From positions 1 through 26,859 of the IMG/VR virus record IMGVR_UViG_3300037189_005553: DNA of 26,859 bases. One strand, given 5' to 3'. The stretch comes from a virus. The notes beneath the pieces were generated by a model that had not been told where the DNA came from, made no database searches, and worked only from the letters and a program-made list of their open reading frames with translations. Shown piece after piece: positions 408-15,458 of the stretch (within the stretch, counting starts at the first letter, position 1; each line of letters opens with the position of its first letter). The position numbers were made by a program, and so were the translations under genes.

Positions 408-752
408 TTAAAGAAGTATTTCGTGAGCATGAACCATACGATGACAGTTAGCACACAAAACTACACATTTCCTAAGTTCAGCAAAAAGCTTTTTAAGCTT
501 TCCTGTATGTAAATTAGTTATATGAGCTTCTTTTTCCTGCATATTAATGTGATGCCAATCAAGAGCATTTACACTTTTATTGAAACCACAAACATGACAT
601 CCTTTGTTTTGCTTATACTTACCTAACCAATATCTGCGCCGTTGTTTTCGTATATTTACATAATCAGAACAACAATTTTTACAGTAGCTAGAATTATAGT
701 GATAAAATTCTTCATCAGGTTTGTCATGTCCGCAGCGCGAACATAATTTCAT
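408..752 (-). CDS. Free-standing HNH endonuclease (114 aa)
   Basis: Likely a homing-type nuclease that nicks or cuts DNA at a specific site and promotes spread of its own gene. An N-terminal zinc-ribbon-like part carries C4-x2-C7 and C24-x2-C27. The HNH core shows C52-x2-C55, then D65-W-H67-H68, and C100-x2-C103-H104, the usual beta-beta-alpha-metal fold with structural zinc. It is the last gene of the leftward arm, after the lysis cassette and before the convergent terminator, a position where an inserted selfish gene does no harm. Its DNA looks more AT-rich than the neighbouring structural genes, suggesting separate acquisition (estimated by eye). Target site is unknown. Confidence 0.85.
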   Translation of the reverse strand: MKLCSRCGHDKPDEEFYHYNSSYCKNCCSDYVNIRKQRRRYWLGKYKQNKGCHVCGFNKSVNALDWHHINMQEKEAHITNLHTGKLKKLFAELRKCVVLCANCHRMVHAHEILL

Positions 753-8266: not shown

Positions 8267-9484
8267 CTAGGCAGCTTTACGGATGATGCCCGAAGCGCCC
8301 CAATGCTTGTGCTTGAGGGAGAACTCTCCGACAATCATTTGGCGTTCTGCGTCACCTACTGTCGCTAATGGTGTGCGCGTCCAAGGACGAAGCGTCATAA
8401 GCTTCCACATGTCTGGATCGAAGATCAGATGGTCAGCAGCAGCCTGGAAGCGATTAAGGATAATCTTCACTTCACCAAATGGTGACAGATAGAGATCCAC
8501 AACGTTCACAATGCGACGAGCAGCTTCTGCATCAGCATTATCGGCAAAGCGATAACGACCAGTAGCAGCAGCGAAACCAGCAATGTTCAATGCTTCAGCA
8601 GGAGGTATCATCACGAACTTAGGTTCTGCACCATTCGTGAAGAGTGTCTGAAGGACAGACGTAAGGTTTGCTTCAGACATAGCGGTAGACGTACCACCAG
8701 TCTTCGTTAGAAGAGCAGCGCCATACGTTGACGTGTCGAGCTGTGACTGGAATGCAGCAAGCTTACGTGGAACAGCAGCAGAACCAGAGCCACCAGACGT
8801 ATTACCAATGGAGGTCAAGAGATTGTTAGCAGCGTTCTGTCCACCAGTGCCAGCCTGAGAGTTCGTCAGGAAGTACTCTAGGTCGCGCTTTAATTCGGCT
8901 GCGGCCTTGGCGAGTTGGTCATTTTTTGTTCAGTAAGAGTCGTTAGTTCTTACCCGTCATAAGACAGCTTATAGTTTCCTATAAGATCAGACTATATCAT
9001 CACCCATTTCTGGGGCCATGCGCTTCCCTACACTTGTAGGTACGAGCTTTCGCTCTAGTCGTTGCACCTTGCTCTTTCGAGCCTTGGCTCAGGATTGTCC
9101 TCGACTTTACGTTAGGAGTTTCCCTGAGTTCACATGGTTTATACTGCGCTACCAAATTCTCAACGCAGTTTCCTTAGCTCGACCATAACGCTGAATGCGG
9201 TCAGTCGTGTTAGCAACTTTAATGTTCTTCTGGAGGATCTGCGTGTAGTTGGTACGCAGCGTCGTAGCAGTTAGCGTAGCATCAGAAGCATCGAAACCAT
9301 CGTACTGATAGTTCGTCGTGTTTACTGCTGCAAGCGCGTCTTCCTGCCACTGGAAGATTACGTTATTGACTGACTCTTTGCCAATCATTGATTGAAAAGG
9401 TGTCGTAGTAGGTGAAATCGTGGTAATAATATCGCTGACATCTTCAGCTTTACCTACGACTTCGTAGGCGGTATAAGTAGCCAT
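8267..9484 (-). CDS. Major capsid protein, two exons split by a group I intron
   Basis: Exon 1 is 9484-9163 (107 codons plus one base) and exon 2 is 8919-8267; joined they give 975 bases, 324 residues plus stop. Unspliced, the frame ends four codons into the intron with TAG. Splicing makes the junction GRAKETA-Y-QLAKAAAELKRDLEY, the Tyr codon being formed from T plus AC. The N-terminus (ITTISPTTTPFQSMIGK) and this junction resemble the SU10/DUF5309-type HK97-fold capsid proteins; the LAKxxxELKRDLE stretch would be the long spine helix. The scaffold gene is upstream and the head-completion genes follow, as expected. A TAGGAA ribosome-binding site precedes the ATG. The open frame from the TTG at 8818 is only the latter part of exon 2, not a gene. 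Confidence 0.92.
8920..9162 (-). ncRNA. Group I self-splicing intron (243 nt, no ORF) in the capsid gene
   Basis: The 5' exon end ACTGCGT (9169-9163) pairs with GCGCAGT (9149-9143), giving a 7-bp P1 with the obligatory U-G pair at the splice site. TTGGT (9155-9151) pairs with the 3' exon start ACCAA (8919-8915) as P10. The intron ends in G (8920). GTGCAACGACTA (9067-9056) and GATATAGTC (8998-8990) contain the P7 halves GACTA and TAGTC. Several GAAA-capped hairpins are seen, e.g. GAGC-GAAA-GCTC next to P7 and a TTATAG-GAAA-CTATAA stem afterwards. The last 35 bases, with a TAAGA...TCTTA stem, then CTGAAC and a terminal ATG, look like the 3' end of T4 td-type (subgroup IA2) introns. No nuclease is encoded inside. 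Confidence 0.95.
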
Positions 9485-10573: not shown

Positions 10574-10821
10574 CAGTTGCTTTCGTGATTTTCTTGGATA
10601 GCCTGTGCGGCGTCCCTATAAGAAGCCATAATCCCTAATAGGTCTTCTATGGCTCTGTGTTGAAAATAAAGTCGCTCTCTTTGAGCTGTTTCTTCAGTAT
10701 TAGTTTGAGAAATGCTTTCAAGTATAAGCGACTTTAAATGATTATAAAACCAAATATGGTCTTCATTTTGTAAGACAGTGGAAGCTATTGCTCCCCGTCT
10801 AACTATTTGTTCTTCGTTCAT
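10573..10821 (-). CDS. Small helical protein of the head module (82 aa)
   Basis: I do not recognise the family. The protein looks all-helical, with EDHIWFYNHLKSLILESI and RERLYFQHRAIEDLLGIM, no Cys and no membrane segment. It sits between the HNH gene and the scaffold; its start lies 23 bases inside the end of the HNH gene and its stop overlaps the scaffold start. This tight coupling suggests that it was originally adjacent to the genes now on the other side of the HNH insertion. A head-assembly accessory role is inferred from position only. Confidence 0.65.
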   Translation of the reverse strand: MNEEQIVRRGAIASTVLQNEDHIWFYNHLKSLILESISQTNTEETAQRERLYFQHRAIEDLLGIMASYRDAAQAIQENHESN

Positions 10822-11164
10822 GAGTTCTTATGCGGTGGCAATTAGAGCAAACAATTTCACATTTAGAAATTTCATTAAGTAACGTTTCAACTGTTCGGCC
10901 ATGTGCTTTTCGGGCAATAGTAAATTCCTTTTCCCCTCTTACATGGTCAAAATCCATAACATATGGTGGATATTTTATACCACAATCCATACAAGGAACG
11001 TTTTTAATAGCAGCAATCATTTCTCTCTTTGTTTGACGAGCATTTTTTGCGGCTTTTCTAGATGCTTCTCTTGTTTGCTCTAAGTTATTTTCACGATATT
11101 TTTGACTATATTTTTTGTCGTAATCTCGCTTTTGTGCCTTCCGCTCTTCAACGGTTAGAGGCAT
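10799..11164 (-). CDS. Free-standing HNH endonuclease (121 aa)
   Basis: A basic N-terminal helix (about 5-55, rich in Lys, Arg and Gln) probably contacts DNA. The HNH domain follows: C58-x2-C61, D71-F-D-H74 and C106-x2-C109-H110, with RIRTH after it. Likely a site-specific homing-type nuclease. It separates the portal-linked small genes from the scaffold/capsid genes, and is about 1.6 kb from the intron-bearing stretch of the capsid gene, making it the best candidate in this window for mobilising that intron in trans. That link is hypothesis. Its start is an ATG eight bases after the stop of the 53-residue gene. Confidence 0.87.
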   Translation of the reverse strand: MPLTVEERKAQKRDYDKKYSQKYRENNLEQTREASRKAAKNARQTKREMIAAIKNVPCMDCGIKYPPYVMDFDHVRGEKEFTIARKAHGRTVETLLNEISKCEIVCSNCHRIRTHERRTNS

Positions 11165-11446: not shown

Positions 11447-13478
11447 TCGGACTCACAATCATGTTCTGTTTAGTTTCAGTTACTGGCGCATCTTCAGCCA
11501 GTTTCATTTCACGTTGAGCAACATCCACCTTATTAGCGATGTCTACATCTTTACGTTGTTCTTCCATCAGCTTAACTTGATTATCAAACTCACGTTGCTG
11601 TGCGTTTAATTGCTCACGACTAGTCTCAATAGCTCCTTGCATCTCAATCTTTTGTTGACTGGATTGTGCAGCTATCATTGCAGCCTGAGCTTTCATTGTC
11701 TCATTCTGCATATTCTGGACGGCCATTGGATCTGGCTGTGGAGGTGGTATTTGGTCAGGAGGTGTCAAATAGTCATTGACCGCTGGCATACCTCGTAACT
11801 TCATGACATCAGATGCAAGCTTATAAGCATTAGGCATCTGGAACATGGGAGCAAAGGAAGGGTTCTGCGTCAGGAACATAGCCATCTGCAAACGCTTCTC
11901 AGCTTCATTGTCATGCTCTTTGTAACCTAAGTGTAAGGATACAGTGACAGTCTTACGGTCTCTCCAGCCTGACGGCTTTACCTTCACCCAGTTACCCGTA
12001 AGCTCTACTATCTTCTCCTTGTCCTCTTTCGCCGTGATAAGCGCGTAAACCTTAAGGTACAAAGGAATAAGGAAGTTATTAGCAAAGTTTCGAGCAATGA
12101 TTTTCTGCCGTGTCTGACTTAAAGATACTAACCGCTCAACCATAGCGTCAGAGTTCTGACTGCTGATGGCGTCTTTGTTCAAGCCTTGGCTAAGTGAACT
12201 AATGCCAGTAGTCTCTTCAGTCTGCGCTTTTATAAGCTCCAGGGTCTGGTAAACAAACGGATTAAGAGGCGCTTGTTCAAGCGGAGATACAGCATCAGGA
12301 CGCGTAACATTAACCAACCCACCAAGACGATTATCCAGTAGCTCTCTAGGATTGGTGAGACCGCCCTTGAGGACTTGGTATCTCGGATTGACCGTAATCG
12401 TCGCATGGTCAACAATCGCTCTCGTAAGGACCGTTCTCACGTTTTGCGAAGGGATAACCCTAGCGCCAAAACTGTTTCCGTAGAACGAATGACTGATTGG
12501 TAATGGTGTAAATACAACAAACGGTATGTCAGATACTTCATCTATCTCAAGTGTCTGGTCACCAGCCCTAACAATCTTATAGAGCTTTGCGTTCTTGTCT
12601 CCCTGTCGCTTCATCTTGAAGTAACATTCGTTAACGAGAATTGTCTCTAGTTCATCTTGGCTAGGATTGCTGTCTACTCTAAAACCAGCATCTAACTGCT
12701 GGAACCTAGCAAAAGACTCTGGTAATGCTTGGATAGATAGTTTGTCTTCTACACGACGTATTTTTGCTACTTTAGCCTTATCAAAACCCATTTTTATTAG
12801 ATCATCTTTTGTCTTAAGACTTCGATGAACACAAAAATAATCTGGACCTAAATGTTTTGCTTGAGGCTCAATAGAAAACTCTTCTGGATTAATTATCTCA
12901 ATCTTGACTTGACTAGTGTCAGATACTCTCGTTAGCTTACCAGAATAAAGACCAGTAACTTCATCAATTTCAGCAGATAGATCAGTGATGTCTTCTTCAG
13001 CCGTCAAAAGCATAATAGCTTCCTCAGGCAGATCGTCGAACTCTTCTTCTATCTCTTGTTCGTTCTCATCCCAGTAAACCTTAGCAACGCCTACTCTAGC
13101 TATCAGACCATCATGGATTGCATCTGAGAATATCTGATAACCGTCGTTTTGCCTAAATACTACATAATCACAATAAGCTGTAGCTATTCTTGCTTCTTCA
13201 GAGTCATCTGGTGATTGTGGATCAAACCTAACAATTTCTCTACCAGCAGCAAATGTTTCAAGCAGTTGTGCTTTCATACTTTCAACTGCATCGAACACTT
13301 CTGTACTTATAAATGATGAAGAGCCTGGGTTCTGCCTTAACGGTAACTCTCCGTTGTAATACTGCATAACCTTTTCGCGTTCCCGCGATAATTTTGAGTT
13401 ATACCATATTACAGCTTCTTTTATCTTTTGGTCTACGAGAACACCAACAGCTTCATCTGTTAGTTCTTTTGCTTTCAT
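11439..13478 (-). CDS. Portal protein
   Basis: A 679-residue protein forming the dodecameric ring through which DNA is packaged and ejected. The N-terminal region has SREREKVMQYYNGELPLRQNPGSSSFIS and DAVESMKAQLLETFAAG, characteristic of podovirus portals of the P22/HMO-2011-like broad class. A stretch with PFVVFTPLPISHSFYGNSF and SQNVRTVLTRAIVDHATI resembles the conserved stem/clip-adjacent region. The C-terminus (about 575-660) is a Gln/Met/Glu-rich long helix (barrel). Length fits large portals. It lies downstream of the terminase, split from it by an HNH-like gene whose stop overlaps the portal start by one base. Confidence 0.9.
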   Translation of the reverse strand: MKAKELTDEAVGVLVDQKIKEAVIWYNSKLSREREKVMQYYNGELPLRQNPGSSSFISTEVFDAVESMKAQLLETFAAGREIVRFDPQSPDDSEEARIATAYCDYVVFRQNDGYQIFSDAIHDGLIARVGVAKVYWDENEQEIEEEFDDLPEEAIMLLTAEEDITDLSAEIDEVTGLYSGKLTRVSDTSQVKIEIINPEEFSIEPQAKHLGPDYFCVHRSLKTKDDLIKMGFDKAKVAKIRRVEDKLSIQALPESFARFQQLDAGFRVDSNPSQDELETILVNECYFKMKRQGDKNAKLYKIVRAGDQTLEIDEVSDIPFVVFTPLPISHSFYGNSFGARVIPSQNVRTVLTRAIVDHATITVNPRYQVLKGGLTNPRELLDNRLGGLVNVTRPDAVSPLEQAPLNPFVYQTLELIKAQTEETTGISSLSQGLNKDAISSQNSDAMVERLVSLSQTRQKIIARNFANNFLIPLYLKVYALITAKEDKEKIVELTGNWVKVKPSGWRDRKTVTVSLHLGYKEHDNEAEKRLQMAMFLTQNPSFAPMFQMPNAYKLASDVMKLRGMPAVNDYLTPPDQIPPPQPDPMAVQNMQNETMKAQAAMIAAQSSQQKIEMQGAIETSREQLNAQQREFDNQVKLMEEQRKDVDIANKVDVAQREMKLAEDAPVTETKQNMIVSPNG

Positions 13479-13942
13479 TATGTCTTGCGCTCCAATTTTT
13501 CATAGAACGCAAGTAGCGTTCGTAACGTGTCCAAAGTATTTAGTGATTTTAGAGTGTTGGCATATCCAGAGATCCACATAACGTTACCTTTAACGTAACC
13601 CAATGCTGGATGAATGCGGTCAAGGGATGGGCTGGTGTTTTGCTCTCCACCAAATTCCATATCAATACCAAATACAGGACACTTACTGTCTTTTGGATAT
13701 ATTTCCATTAGATAATCAGTGTCTATATTGAAGGGCAACTTTTTCTTTTTGGATCTACTTCTTGCGCTATTTAAAGCAACGTTAAATCTTGCTCTTCTAT
13801 ATTGTTCTTGAGAAATCCAAACTTCACCACGAGATGTAGAGTCACAAAAGTAAACTTTACCGTCTTCTCTAATATCACCTAATTTAAATTGCTTTGAGGT
13901 ATTGCCAGTCTTCAATAGCGACTGGCTTAAACGATCCAACAT
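13478..13942 (-). CDS. HNH-like endonuclease inserted between terminase and portal
   Basis: The C-terminal half carries CPVFGIDMEF (from residue 88), SPSLDRI (106-110) and GYVKGNVMWIS (115-125), then ANTLKS. This C-P-x-F/C-G ... SLDRIxP..GYVxGNVxW pattern is common in phage proteins annotated as HNH-type endonucleases. The N-terminus (LGDIREDGKVYF, then SQEQYRRAR) is typical of that group. The ATG at 13942 lies inside the terminase gene (59-base overlap) and lacks an evident ribosome-binding site; an alternative start near TTG codons around 13915 would remove some residues of doubtful origin. Its insertion exactly between two core packaging genes suggests mobility. Classification is by motif memory; no classic Cys-zinc HNH is seen. 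Confidence 0.75.
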   Translation of the reverse strand: MLDRLSQSLLKTGNTSKQFKLGDIREDGKVYFCDSTSRGEVWISQEQYRRARFNVALNSARSRSKKKKLPFNIDTDYLMEIYPKDSKCPVFGIDMEFGGEQNTSPSLDRIHPALGYVKGNVMWISGYANTLKSLNTLDTLRTLLAFYEKLERKT

Positions 13943-15458
13943 GAATGTAGTTACAAATAGCTAGACTCATTACACAGTCATCAAATGAACCAGCTTCTGC
14001 TTCTAGTTTACCACCTTCGGTAACAATATAAGTAAGCATCTCGCCTAATGTGGTTCTGTCTGTAATTGTAATCTCTCCCAAACGGAGAGAAGCTCTGAGT
14101 CGATCAATAATAAGAGGCTTACTTTTGCTCGTTGTTCTAAAACCAATATTATAAGACTCGTTATCTGTTAGCTTACCCTCGCTAACTTCAGTCCAAACAT
14201 TAGGATATGAAAGTTCACGAGCAAGTCGAATACACGGTAAAATTCCGTGACTGTTAGACTCAATAGCAATAAGAGCTTCGTTATAATAATTTCCAAGAGC
14301 AAACAAAACGTCCGCGAAAGCATCTGGGTGTATATGTCCTCGCCAAGAGGCCACTAAATTCTTTTGACTGTCGAGTACTTGAGCAACGGAGTAGTCTCCA
14401 TTTTGAATACCCAAAGCAACGTCAGCGCCGATATAATAAGTATCGCCAATGTCCTTTTCCTTCCATACCTTCAGTTCACCTCTTGTATGCTTTTCAAACG
14501 TTTGTCCTTCCATAGACATACGATATAAAGGCTCTTCGGCACTTTTAAGCATATTGTGAACTATCTCAGGGTCAAACACAGGACGACCAGAAGCAATAAA
14601 AGCCTCATCAGCGTTGGCAGGATATTCCTGTGCAAACTTATCTCTACCGTTTTGTGCTATCTTAATACGACGGAACATTAATTGACCGTCTGACAGTCCG
14701 TATTGAGCTGCTAAGTCTTCCTCTTCGTACGTACGCTCAAATTTATCTGGTACATCCGCAGTATATTCGGGACTGTCATGCCAAGGTGAAAAGAAAGGTA
14801 TAAAACCGTTTTCACCTGAGACTGCTCCTTTCCACAAATCGTAAAACACACCACTCATACCGTTGGCTGTAGACTCAATGTAGATAGAAGTATCTTTTGT
14901 ATTAGGGATAGCTTGCAATAGAGCATTTAAGTTATCTAAAGCACTAGCAGTAGGATAGAAGGCTACTTCAGAAAGATGAGCATCAGTAAACGTCTCACCA
15001 CGGGCAATACCTTCGCCGCCAGCAGTCGCAATCTGAATAGCTGAGTCTAAGCCAGAGAACACAAGCTCCTTACGAGAGCTGTAAGAGGTAGCTGGCTTAA
15101 GTAACTCAGGCATTTCAGCGTGAGTTCTTCTATACATATCAAATAGTGTTCTAGAGCTATCTGCTTGGTGAGCAACAACAAGCCCCTTACGTGCTTTACG
15201 TTGACTAAGGGTCCAATACATACGACCAGAGGTATACGTAGAAAACCCTTGTTGTCTTGCTTTAAGAATAATTATTCTAACTTTACCAGTAGCTTTACGT
15301 TGCGCTTCTATAGCTTCGTGTAGTTTCTTTTGTGGACCATTAAGAACTAAAGGCTTTATATCAGCATCCTTAGTTCTAATCTTAATAGCGTTCTTAGAAT
15401 AAAACTCAAAGTCTTCGTAAAGCCGCTTTCTTATATCTTTAGTTTTCTGTGTCGTCAT
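13884..15458 (-). CDS. terL: Terminase large subunit
   Basis: A 524-residue packaging motor. The ATPase domain has the Walker A-like KARQQGFST (66-74), a Walker B region HLSEVAFY (161-168) with E164, and the coupling motif IYIESTANG (192-200). The nuclease domain has the RNase H-like metal ligands D346 (IGADVALG), E400 (IAIESN) and D493/D494 (SFDDCVMSL). It overlaps its small-subunit neighbour by 20 bases upstream and the HNH-like gene downstream. In the family it cuts concatemeric DNA and pumps it into the prohead through the portal. All motifs are intact. Confidence 0.95.
   Translation of the reverse strand: MTTQKTKDIRKRLYEDFEFYSKNAIKIRTKDADIKPLVLNGPQKKLHEAIEAQRKATGKVRIIILKARQQGFSTYTSGRMYWTLSQRKARKGLVVAHQADSSRTLFDMYRRTHAEMPELLKPATSYSSRKELVFSGLDSAIQIATAGGEGIARGETFTDAHLSEVAFYPTASALDNLNALLQAIPNTKDTSIYIESTANGMSGVFYDLWKGAVSGENGFIPFFSPWHDSPEYTADVPDKFERTYEEEDLAAQYGLSDGQLMFRRIKIAQNGRDKFAQEYPANADEAFIASGRPVFDPEIVHNMLKSAEEPLYRMSMEGQTFEKHTRGELKVWKEKDIGDTYYIGADVALGIQNGDYSVAQVLDSQKNLVASWRGHIHPDAFADVLFALGNYYNEALIAIESNSHGILPCIRLARELSYPNVWTEVSEGKLTDNESYNIGFRTTSKSKPLIIDRLRASLRLGEITITDRTTLGEMLTYIVTEGGKLEAEAGSFDDCVMSLAICNYIHVGSFKPVAIEDWQYLKAI

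Follow-up and report, generated by a model that had tools for sequence, protein, structure and literature searches.

Background

The group I introns of the T4 genes td, nrdB and nrdD lie in nucleotide-metabolism genes, contain ORFs and have been experimentally proven to self-splice. IA2 introns such as that of td have a layout without P2, with P7.1/P7.2 and with P9.1/P9.2. The intron described here resembles the three T4 introns in its IA2-like layout and in having an in-frame stop near the 5' splice site; unlike them, it contains no ORF, and its host gene encodes a major capsid protein. In a recent database, IA2 introns make up more than half of the viral group I introns (PMC11835236).

Introns in capsid genes have been described before. 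For that of the mycobacteriophage LittleE, whose type its authors left as most likely group I, spliced cDNA and the mature protein were reported, and Tuc2009 was also cited as a capsid case (PMC3706429). LittleE is comparable to our locus in that a probable group I intron is found in the major capsid gene and relatives have an empty allele, but its intron is 819 bp long and contains a putative homing endonuclease gene, the capsid is HK97-like and the host is of high GC (PMC3706429). Crass-like phages of the Delta and Zeta groups also have group I introns in their MCP genes, one MCP being in up to five pieces. These phages, however, are Crassvirales from the gut, and their capsid introns bear ORFs, as they were found via nuclease domains (PMC7886860).

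Two other systems, the psbA intron of S-PM2, paired with F-CphI, and the terminase intron of ICP1, next to which lies a nuclease gene, share with our locus an essential host gene and a free-standing nuclease nearby; F-CphI has been established to cut the intron site, whereas the nucleases considered below co-occur with the intron in two genomes (PMC6083498, PMC10448857). Collaborative homing has been reviewed (PMC3984707) and discussed (PMC10448857). In the intron-rich Jug phages, metatranscriptomes supported roughly one in two of the tested introns (PMC12363816).

A group I intron in an SU10-type major capsid gene

The window, that is, the whole stretch of DNA analyzed, is a 26,859-base record of an uncultured phage (IMG/VR virus record IMGVR_UViG_3300037189_005553). 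Its minus strand carries genes for terminase, an SU10-type portal, scaffold, capsid and the tail region. Unspliced, the capsid frame starts at 9484 and ends at a TAG at 9151-9149. When 9163 is joined to 8919, which removes the 243 nt from 9162 to 8920, a single open frame of 324 aa results, encoding a major capsid protein: each exon separately matches Pfam SU10_MCP (Table 1), and the whole spliced protein matches the PHROG major head protein (1.8e-75). Exon 2 lacks an early start codon: the first in the list is at 8818, 34 codons in. From the frame it follows that capsid output is predicted to depend on splicing.

The first-pass annotation, made from the letters alone, had proposed an ORF-less group I intron at this place and had named an Rfam covariance search as a check. 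This search gave a match to RF00028 of 76.3 bits (gathering score 50, E = 5.7e-18), the sole Rfam match within the window. The window ORF list contains no ORF of at least 60 aa within 8920-9162, hence no intron-encoded homing endonuclease, and the possibility of one hidden inside the intron was rejected.

Table 1. Features of the capsid gene, its intron and the neighboring nuclease genes, in window positions
Feature	Position	Strand	Description
Capsid exon 1	9163..9484	-	322 nt; codons 1-107 and first base of Tyr108; Pfam SU10_MCP, E 2.4e-26; aligns to L003-L008
ORF-less group I intron	8920..9162	-	243 nt; RF00028; exact empty site in L003-L006; covariation over 19 introns
Capsid exon 2	8267..8919	-	653 nt including stop; Pfam SU10_MCP, E 2.1e-37; spliced frame open
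P1 5' strand ACTGCGT, in exon 1	9163..9169	-	pairs with 9149-9143; U.G at splice site
Internal guide sequence GCGCAGT, P1 3' strand	9143..9149	-	pairing with exon 1
P10 5' strand TTGGT	9151..9155	-	pairs with exon 2 ACCAA, 8919-8915
In-frame TAG	9149..9151	-	ends exon 1 translation in unspliced message; upstream of P3
P3 5' strand	9131..9137	-	pairs with 9022-9016; 4/7 pairs change on both sides; 99.2% paired
P4 5' strand	9123..9128	-	pairs with 9093-9088; 99.1% paired; changes on both sides
P6a hairpin, GAAA loop	9071..9082	-	3/4 pairs change on both sides
P7 5' strand GACTA	9056..9060	-	pairs with TAGTC, 8994-8990; 100% paired, invariant; Rfam core alignment
P7.1 hairpin, GAAA loop	9044..9055	-	4/4 pairs change on both sides; 89.5% paired
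P7.2 hairpin	9027..9040	-	4/5 pairs change on both sides
P8 hairpin, GAAA loop	9003..9014	-	forms in window; poorly aligned in other introns
P9 hairpin, GAAA loop	8968..8985	-	100% paired; Rfam match ends here
P9.1 hairpin	8954..8967	-	80% paired
P9.2 hairpin	8933..8953	-	6/6 pairs change on both sides; 100% paired
Terminal guanosine (omega G)	8920..8920	-	sequence
Free-standing HNH endonuclease gene	10799..11164	-	PHROG HNH, E 1.5e-26; 1.3 kb upstream of capsid start; candidate trans-acting homing enzyme
Free-standing endonuclease-VII/HNH-like gene	13478..13942	-	PHROG endonuclease, E 4.2e-26; between terL and portal; second candidate

Intron fold and covariation

Helices P1, P3-P7, P7.1, P7.2, P8, P9, P9.1 and P9.2 were placed on the window, and their pairs were counted over 19 capsid-gene introns. 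Across these introns, 92.8% of the base-pair cells were paired (100% for P6), against 27-43% when the partners were slid by one to three columns. Changes on both sides were observed in 32 of the 64 pairs, and the covariation score was 0.401, compared with a mean of 0.146 after shuffling and a maximum of 0.094 for slid partners. P8 and part of P9.1 are without alignment support, most likely as a result of gap placement. That the core helices change in a compensatory way shows selection for a folded RNA.

P1 is formed by 7 base pairs and places U.G at the 5' splice site; shuffling the first 50 intron bases 20,000 times gave a P1 at least as good in only 232 cases. Its six counted pairs are formed in 19/19 introns, two of them changing on both sides, and P1 covaries with the exon of each host gene (114/114 cells paired). 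The U.G was likewise found in 19/19 introns, but since the U and the G were imposed on the other introns when their splice sites were chosen, the independent support is that of the window, the empty sites and the P1 covariation. The signals listed by the first-pass annotation are all in the sequence, from P1 with its U.G, P10 and the P7 halves GACTA/TAGTC to the G at 8920 and the GAAA-capped stems, which are P6a, P7.1, P8 and P9. By inspection, the layout has no P2, P7.1/P7.2 lie between P7 and P3, and P9.1/P9.2 are present, all supported by covariation save P9.1, where support is partial. The IA2 assignment, made by layout alone, fits this arrangement and agrees with the prevalence of IA2 among viral group I introns (PMC11835236).

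We regard the locus, almost certainly, as an SU10-type major capsid gene whose Tyr108 codon is interrupted by a compact, predicted self-splicing group I intron of IA2-like layout. In the proposed mechanism, the last bases of exon 1 would pair with the intron guide sequence, forming P1, with U.G where the cut falls; P7 would bind the guanosine that makes the first cut, at the 5' site; and P10 would align exon 2, so that the exons would be joined to read ...ETA-Y-QLAK.... A ribosome on the unspliced message would halt at the early in-frame TAG, before the catalytic core, leaving the core free to fold. Guanosine attack, exon joining, in vivo splicing and ribosome termination are steps that we infer from the behavior of the family. 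The intron itself would, on balance probably, have arrived by homing via an endonuclease encoded elsewhere.

Empty sites and same-site introns in relatives

A search of IMG/VR with the spliced capsid protein gave six loci. Four of them (L003, L004, L005 and L006) are continuous across the predicted junction, with exactly 243 nt absent. The splice sites of the first-pass annotation agree to the base with these empty sites, and also with the homologous introns at the same codon and with the covariation. L003 is 90% identical to the window at the nucleotide level over the coding sequence, yet it is empty. An independent contig (L007/L031) of the identical phage has the intron in the same arrangement, and the more distant L008, about 70-72% identical in nucleotides, has a 233-nt intron at the same base, whose stems have changed and are still paired. 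Comparison shows in this way the junction and the empty alleles, as it does the fold, the conserved U.G and the omega G.

Introns at the same site were found in L008, in phage C72C1 (OQ984150.1, locus L002), in L019/L059, L044, L206, L260 and others; a junction-pattern search matched only L019/L059. The intron of C72C1 interrupts the same Tyr codon in the same phase and with the same core, in a capsid whose first exon is about 42% identical to that of the window. Its exon and guide read TTGCGT/GCGCAA, versus CTGCGT/GCGCAG in the window, a joint change of exon and guide. It differs from the window intron in its length of 251 nt and in that short opposite-strand ORFs were called instead of an intron: the segment (L002 2994-3244; OQ984150.1 about 9151-9401) is without annotation, and the gene was deposited as two 'major head protein' genes with these ORFs between them. 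Another intron was observed in L006, a phage that is empty at the site of the window intron: 773 nt long (1216-1988) and of group I, it lies at capsid codon 46 and contains an HNH-like ORF.

Recurrent introns in SU10-type capsid genes

For a wider survey, contigs were drawn by DNA strings from the intron core alone and then checked for adjoining capsid sequence. Among the matches listed, 33/124, 5/71 and 3/14 were in SU10-type capsid genes, depending on the core string. Splice sites were resolved by maximizing the capsid profile score, with a U before the intron and a G at its end imposed. This yielded 56 intron gaps in 42 SU10-type capsid genes, which form 27 clusters at 90% identity; some of the 42 genes are repeat retrievals of the phage of the window, and a few come from the capsid search. 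Two positions predominate, Tyr108 in phase 1 with 17 gaps and residue 252 in phase 2 with 20; counted once per cluster, they represent 12 and 11 cases. Tyr108 gains an 18th gap if L188 is included, whose phase is uncertain, since the boundary behind its phase 0 at residue 108 may be misplaced. The remaining insertions are at about residues 23, 25, 46, 48, 51, 60, 76, 87, 114, 117, 250, 254 and 255. Conservation is higher in the stretches around insertion sites than around random positions (0.69 versus 0.56, P = 5e-5).

Rfam independently placed 35 introns above the cut-off in 20 of the surveyed loci. By this measure, one capsid gene (L167, IMGVR_UViG_3300035070_001968, minus strand 1763-148) contains four group I introns, the first after about 19 codons, and three introns each were found in L177 and in L059/L019. 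The latter are two contigs (L059 655-2019 and L019 2906-1542, minus strand) with three ORF-less introns, at residues 25, 108 and 254. Reading of the sequence confirmed the short first exons of L167, L177 and L222, and a 531-nt gap in L266 resolved into a pair of introns separated by a small exon. A contig binned as a bacterium (PAQG01000041.1, Acidimicrobiaceae MAG) has an SU10-type capsid gene that contains two group I introns (L286 1160-1885).

In each of the 56 resolved introns, the reading frame meets a stop no more than 42 nt from the 5' splice site. Since 81% of the alternative frames likewise end within 50 nt, the early stop is a modest signal and was rejected as a strong signature. In about 300 phage records, SU10-type capsids were almost all uninterrupted among the matches listed. 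An alignment-based capsid scan gave 80 uninterrupted genes, a number that yields no frequency because the ranking disfavors split genes. A plasmid search returned one partial core match.

Host genes of the intron lineage

For introns outside SU10 capsids, the adjoining genes were clustered, and representatives of the clusters were scanned. Among the matches listed, these hosts were other major head protein families (14, 10, 8 and 4 cases), DNA polymerase (15, 6 and 4), tail sheath (9), ribonucleotide reductase (3, 2 and 2) and terminase (4). The tail sheath genes adjoined by the same lineage are in nine contigs (L013, L014, L016, L022, L034, L046, L055, L064 and L072). When the 38 SU10 cases are added, about 74 of the 195 introns among the matches listed (38%) fall in major capsid genes and 25 (13%) in DNA polymerase; these shares are rough, since the samples were exact-string, non-deduplicated and restricted to the matches listed. 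The one point on which the first-pass annotation needs revising is its treatment of a capsid gene as an unusual host: capsid introns were already known (PMC3706429, PMC7886860), and the major capsid is the commonest host among the matches listed.

Our tentative view, more a possibility than a probability, is that the compact ORF-less IA2-like introns of environmental phages have their main habitat in major capsid genes, particularly those of SU10 type. Introns of several lineages would return again and again to a handful of codons (Tyr108, residue 252), with as many as four introns in one gene, and, lacking endonucleases of their own, would be spread by nucleases in trans.

Possible mobility and the neighboring nuclease genes

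The distribution of the intron is patchy, absent as it is in the nearest relative and present in a distant one. Exon sequence around the site was compared between the window and L008. The 22 nt upstream and 8 nt downstream are identical, compared with 48% identity at third positions overall and 83% between the two introns, while in the close but empty L003 four positions of this stretch depart from the window sequence. The shared flank suggests, by its resemblance, exon co-conversion during homing; as a signal of mobility it is suggestive only, because it is short, its P1 and P10 strands are constrained by the intron, and the intronless L087 also has CGA and TAC at two of the informative codons. 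Since the intron has no endonuclease of its own, past mobility would need one acting in trans.

Two free-standing nuclease genes of the window are candidates (Table 1). The HNH gene has a homologue of about 55% identity at the same place in the intron-bearing G006 and is absent in the closer, intronless relatives G001, G003 and G008; the endonuclease-VII-like gene has a homologue of 51% in G006 and is absent in the intronless G003 and G008. The nucleases co-occur with the intron in 2/2 intron-bearing versus 0/3 intronless genomes (Fisher P = 0.1, uncorrected for ancestry), numbers too small for more than a lead; G004 (L006) was left out of this count because its contig stops short of the HNH position. 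The endonuclease-VII-like gene overlaps the end of terL (13884-15458) by about 60 nt. In L005 and L087, terL is followed almost at once by the portal gene, so that the gene map suggests a recent insertion of the endonuclease gene. Another small HNH gene, the third, lies at the end of the record (window 408-752, minus strand, PHROG E 1e-31).

Alternative explanations

How the intron came to its site can be read in two ways. It may be spliced but immobile, an old remnant inherited vertically whose endonuclease was lost and which relatives lost precisely, a reading to which we give a little less than an even chance. The absence of an ORF agrees with it, as does C72C1, whose complete circular record contains the intron at this site but neither an annotated homing endonuclease nor a match to the two window nucleases; the nucleases of the window and G006 are moreover diverged (50-56% in amino acids), which looks old rather than like fresh co-transfer. 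It would, however, require several precise losses in very close relatives such as L003 (90% in nucleotides), and it sits poorly with an exon flank closer to the distant intron-bearing L008 than to the close empty L003, and with an intron at the same base in 12 of the 27 gene clusters. Alternatively, the HNH enzyme or the endonuclease-VII-like enzyme would cut the empty capsid site and so spread the intron, by collaborative homing. An ORF-less intron with free-standing endonuclease genes nearby is what the window contains, both genes accompany the intron in the window and in G006 and are absent from the intronless G001, G003 and G008 where these regions are covered, and both nuclease types have precedents (PMC3984707, PMC10448857, PMC6083498). 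This specific assignment is nevertheless rather unlikely: the association concerns two against three genomes of uncorrected ancestry, the HNH gene is 1.3 kb from the intron site, free-standing nucleases usually home for themselves, and none of the other intron-bearing records tested, several being fragments, has a homologue of either.

Two further readings concern what the 243 nt do. If they stayed in the message, the capsid would be made as two separate polypeptides, or the gene would be broken or misassembled. We reject broken gene, assembly error and two-piece capsid alike, this reading being extremely improbable: the arrangement is identical in the independent contig L007/L031, a diverged phage has the same insertion, exon 2 is without a nearby start, and compensatory changes in all core helices indicate selection for a folded RNA. 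A spliced intron could also be kept as a timer or tuner of capsid production, at once regulator and selfish element. The recurrence of introns in this family's late structural genes and the constant early in-frame stop would suit such a role, but close relatives manage without the intron, and the 300 or so records of SU10-family phages are almost all uninterrupted among the matches listed; no regulatory feature was found, and we consider this role improbable.

Conclusions

A single capsid intron is of an already known kind; what this analysis adds is the scale of recurrent docking in capsid genes. Neither introns in SU10-type capsids nor such a concentration in capsid genes was reported in the open-licence literature searched, which is no proof of novelty. 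The finding has a practical side, as gene callers seem to miss capsid introns, C72C1 being annotated with two head proteins and spurious ORFs between them; split capsid genes score low and can be missed, which matters for annotation and for counts based on capsid markers. The survey suggests that this intron lineage resides most often in the capsid gene, ahead of DNA polymerase and ribonucleotide reductase. The recurrent docking is a more interesting result than the single intron, and it raises the questions of how an endonuclease-free intron arrives again and again at one codon, and of how splicing keeps pace with the most abundant late message.
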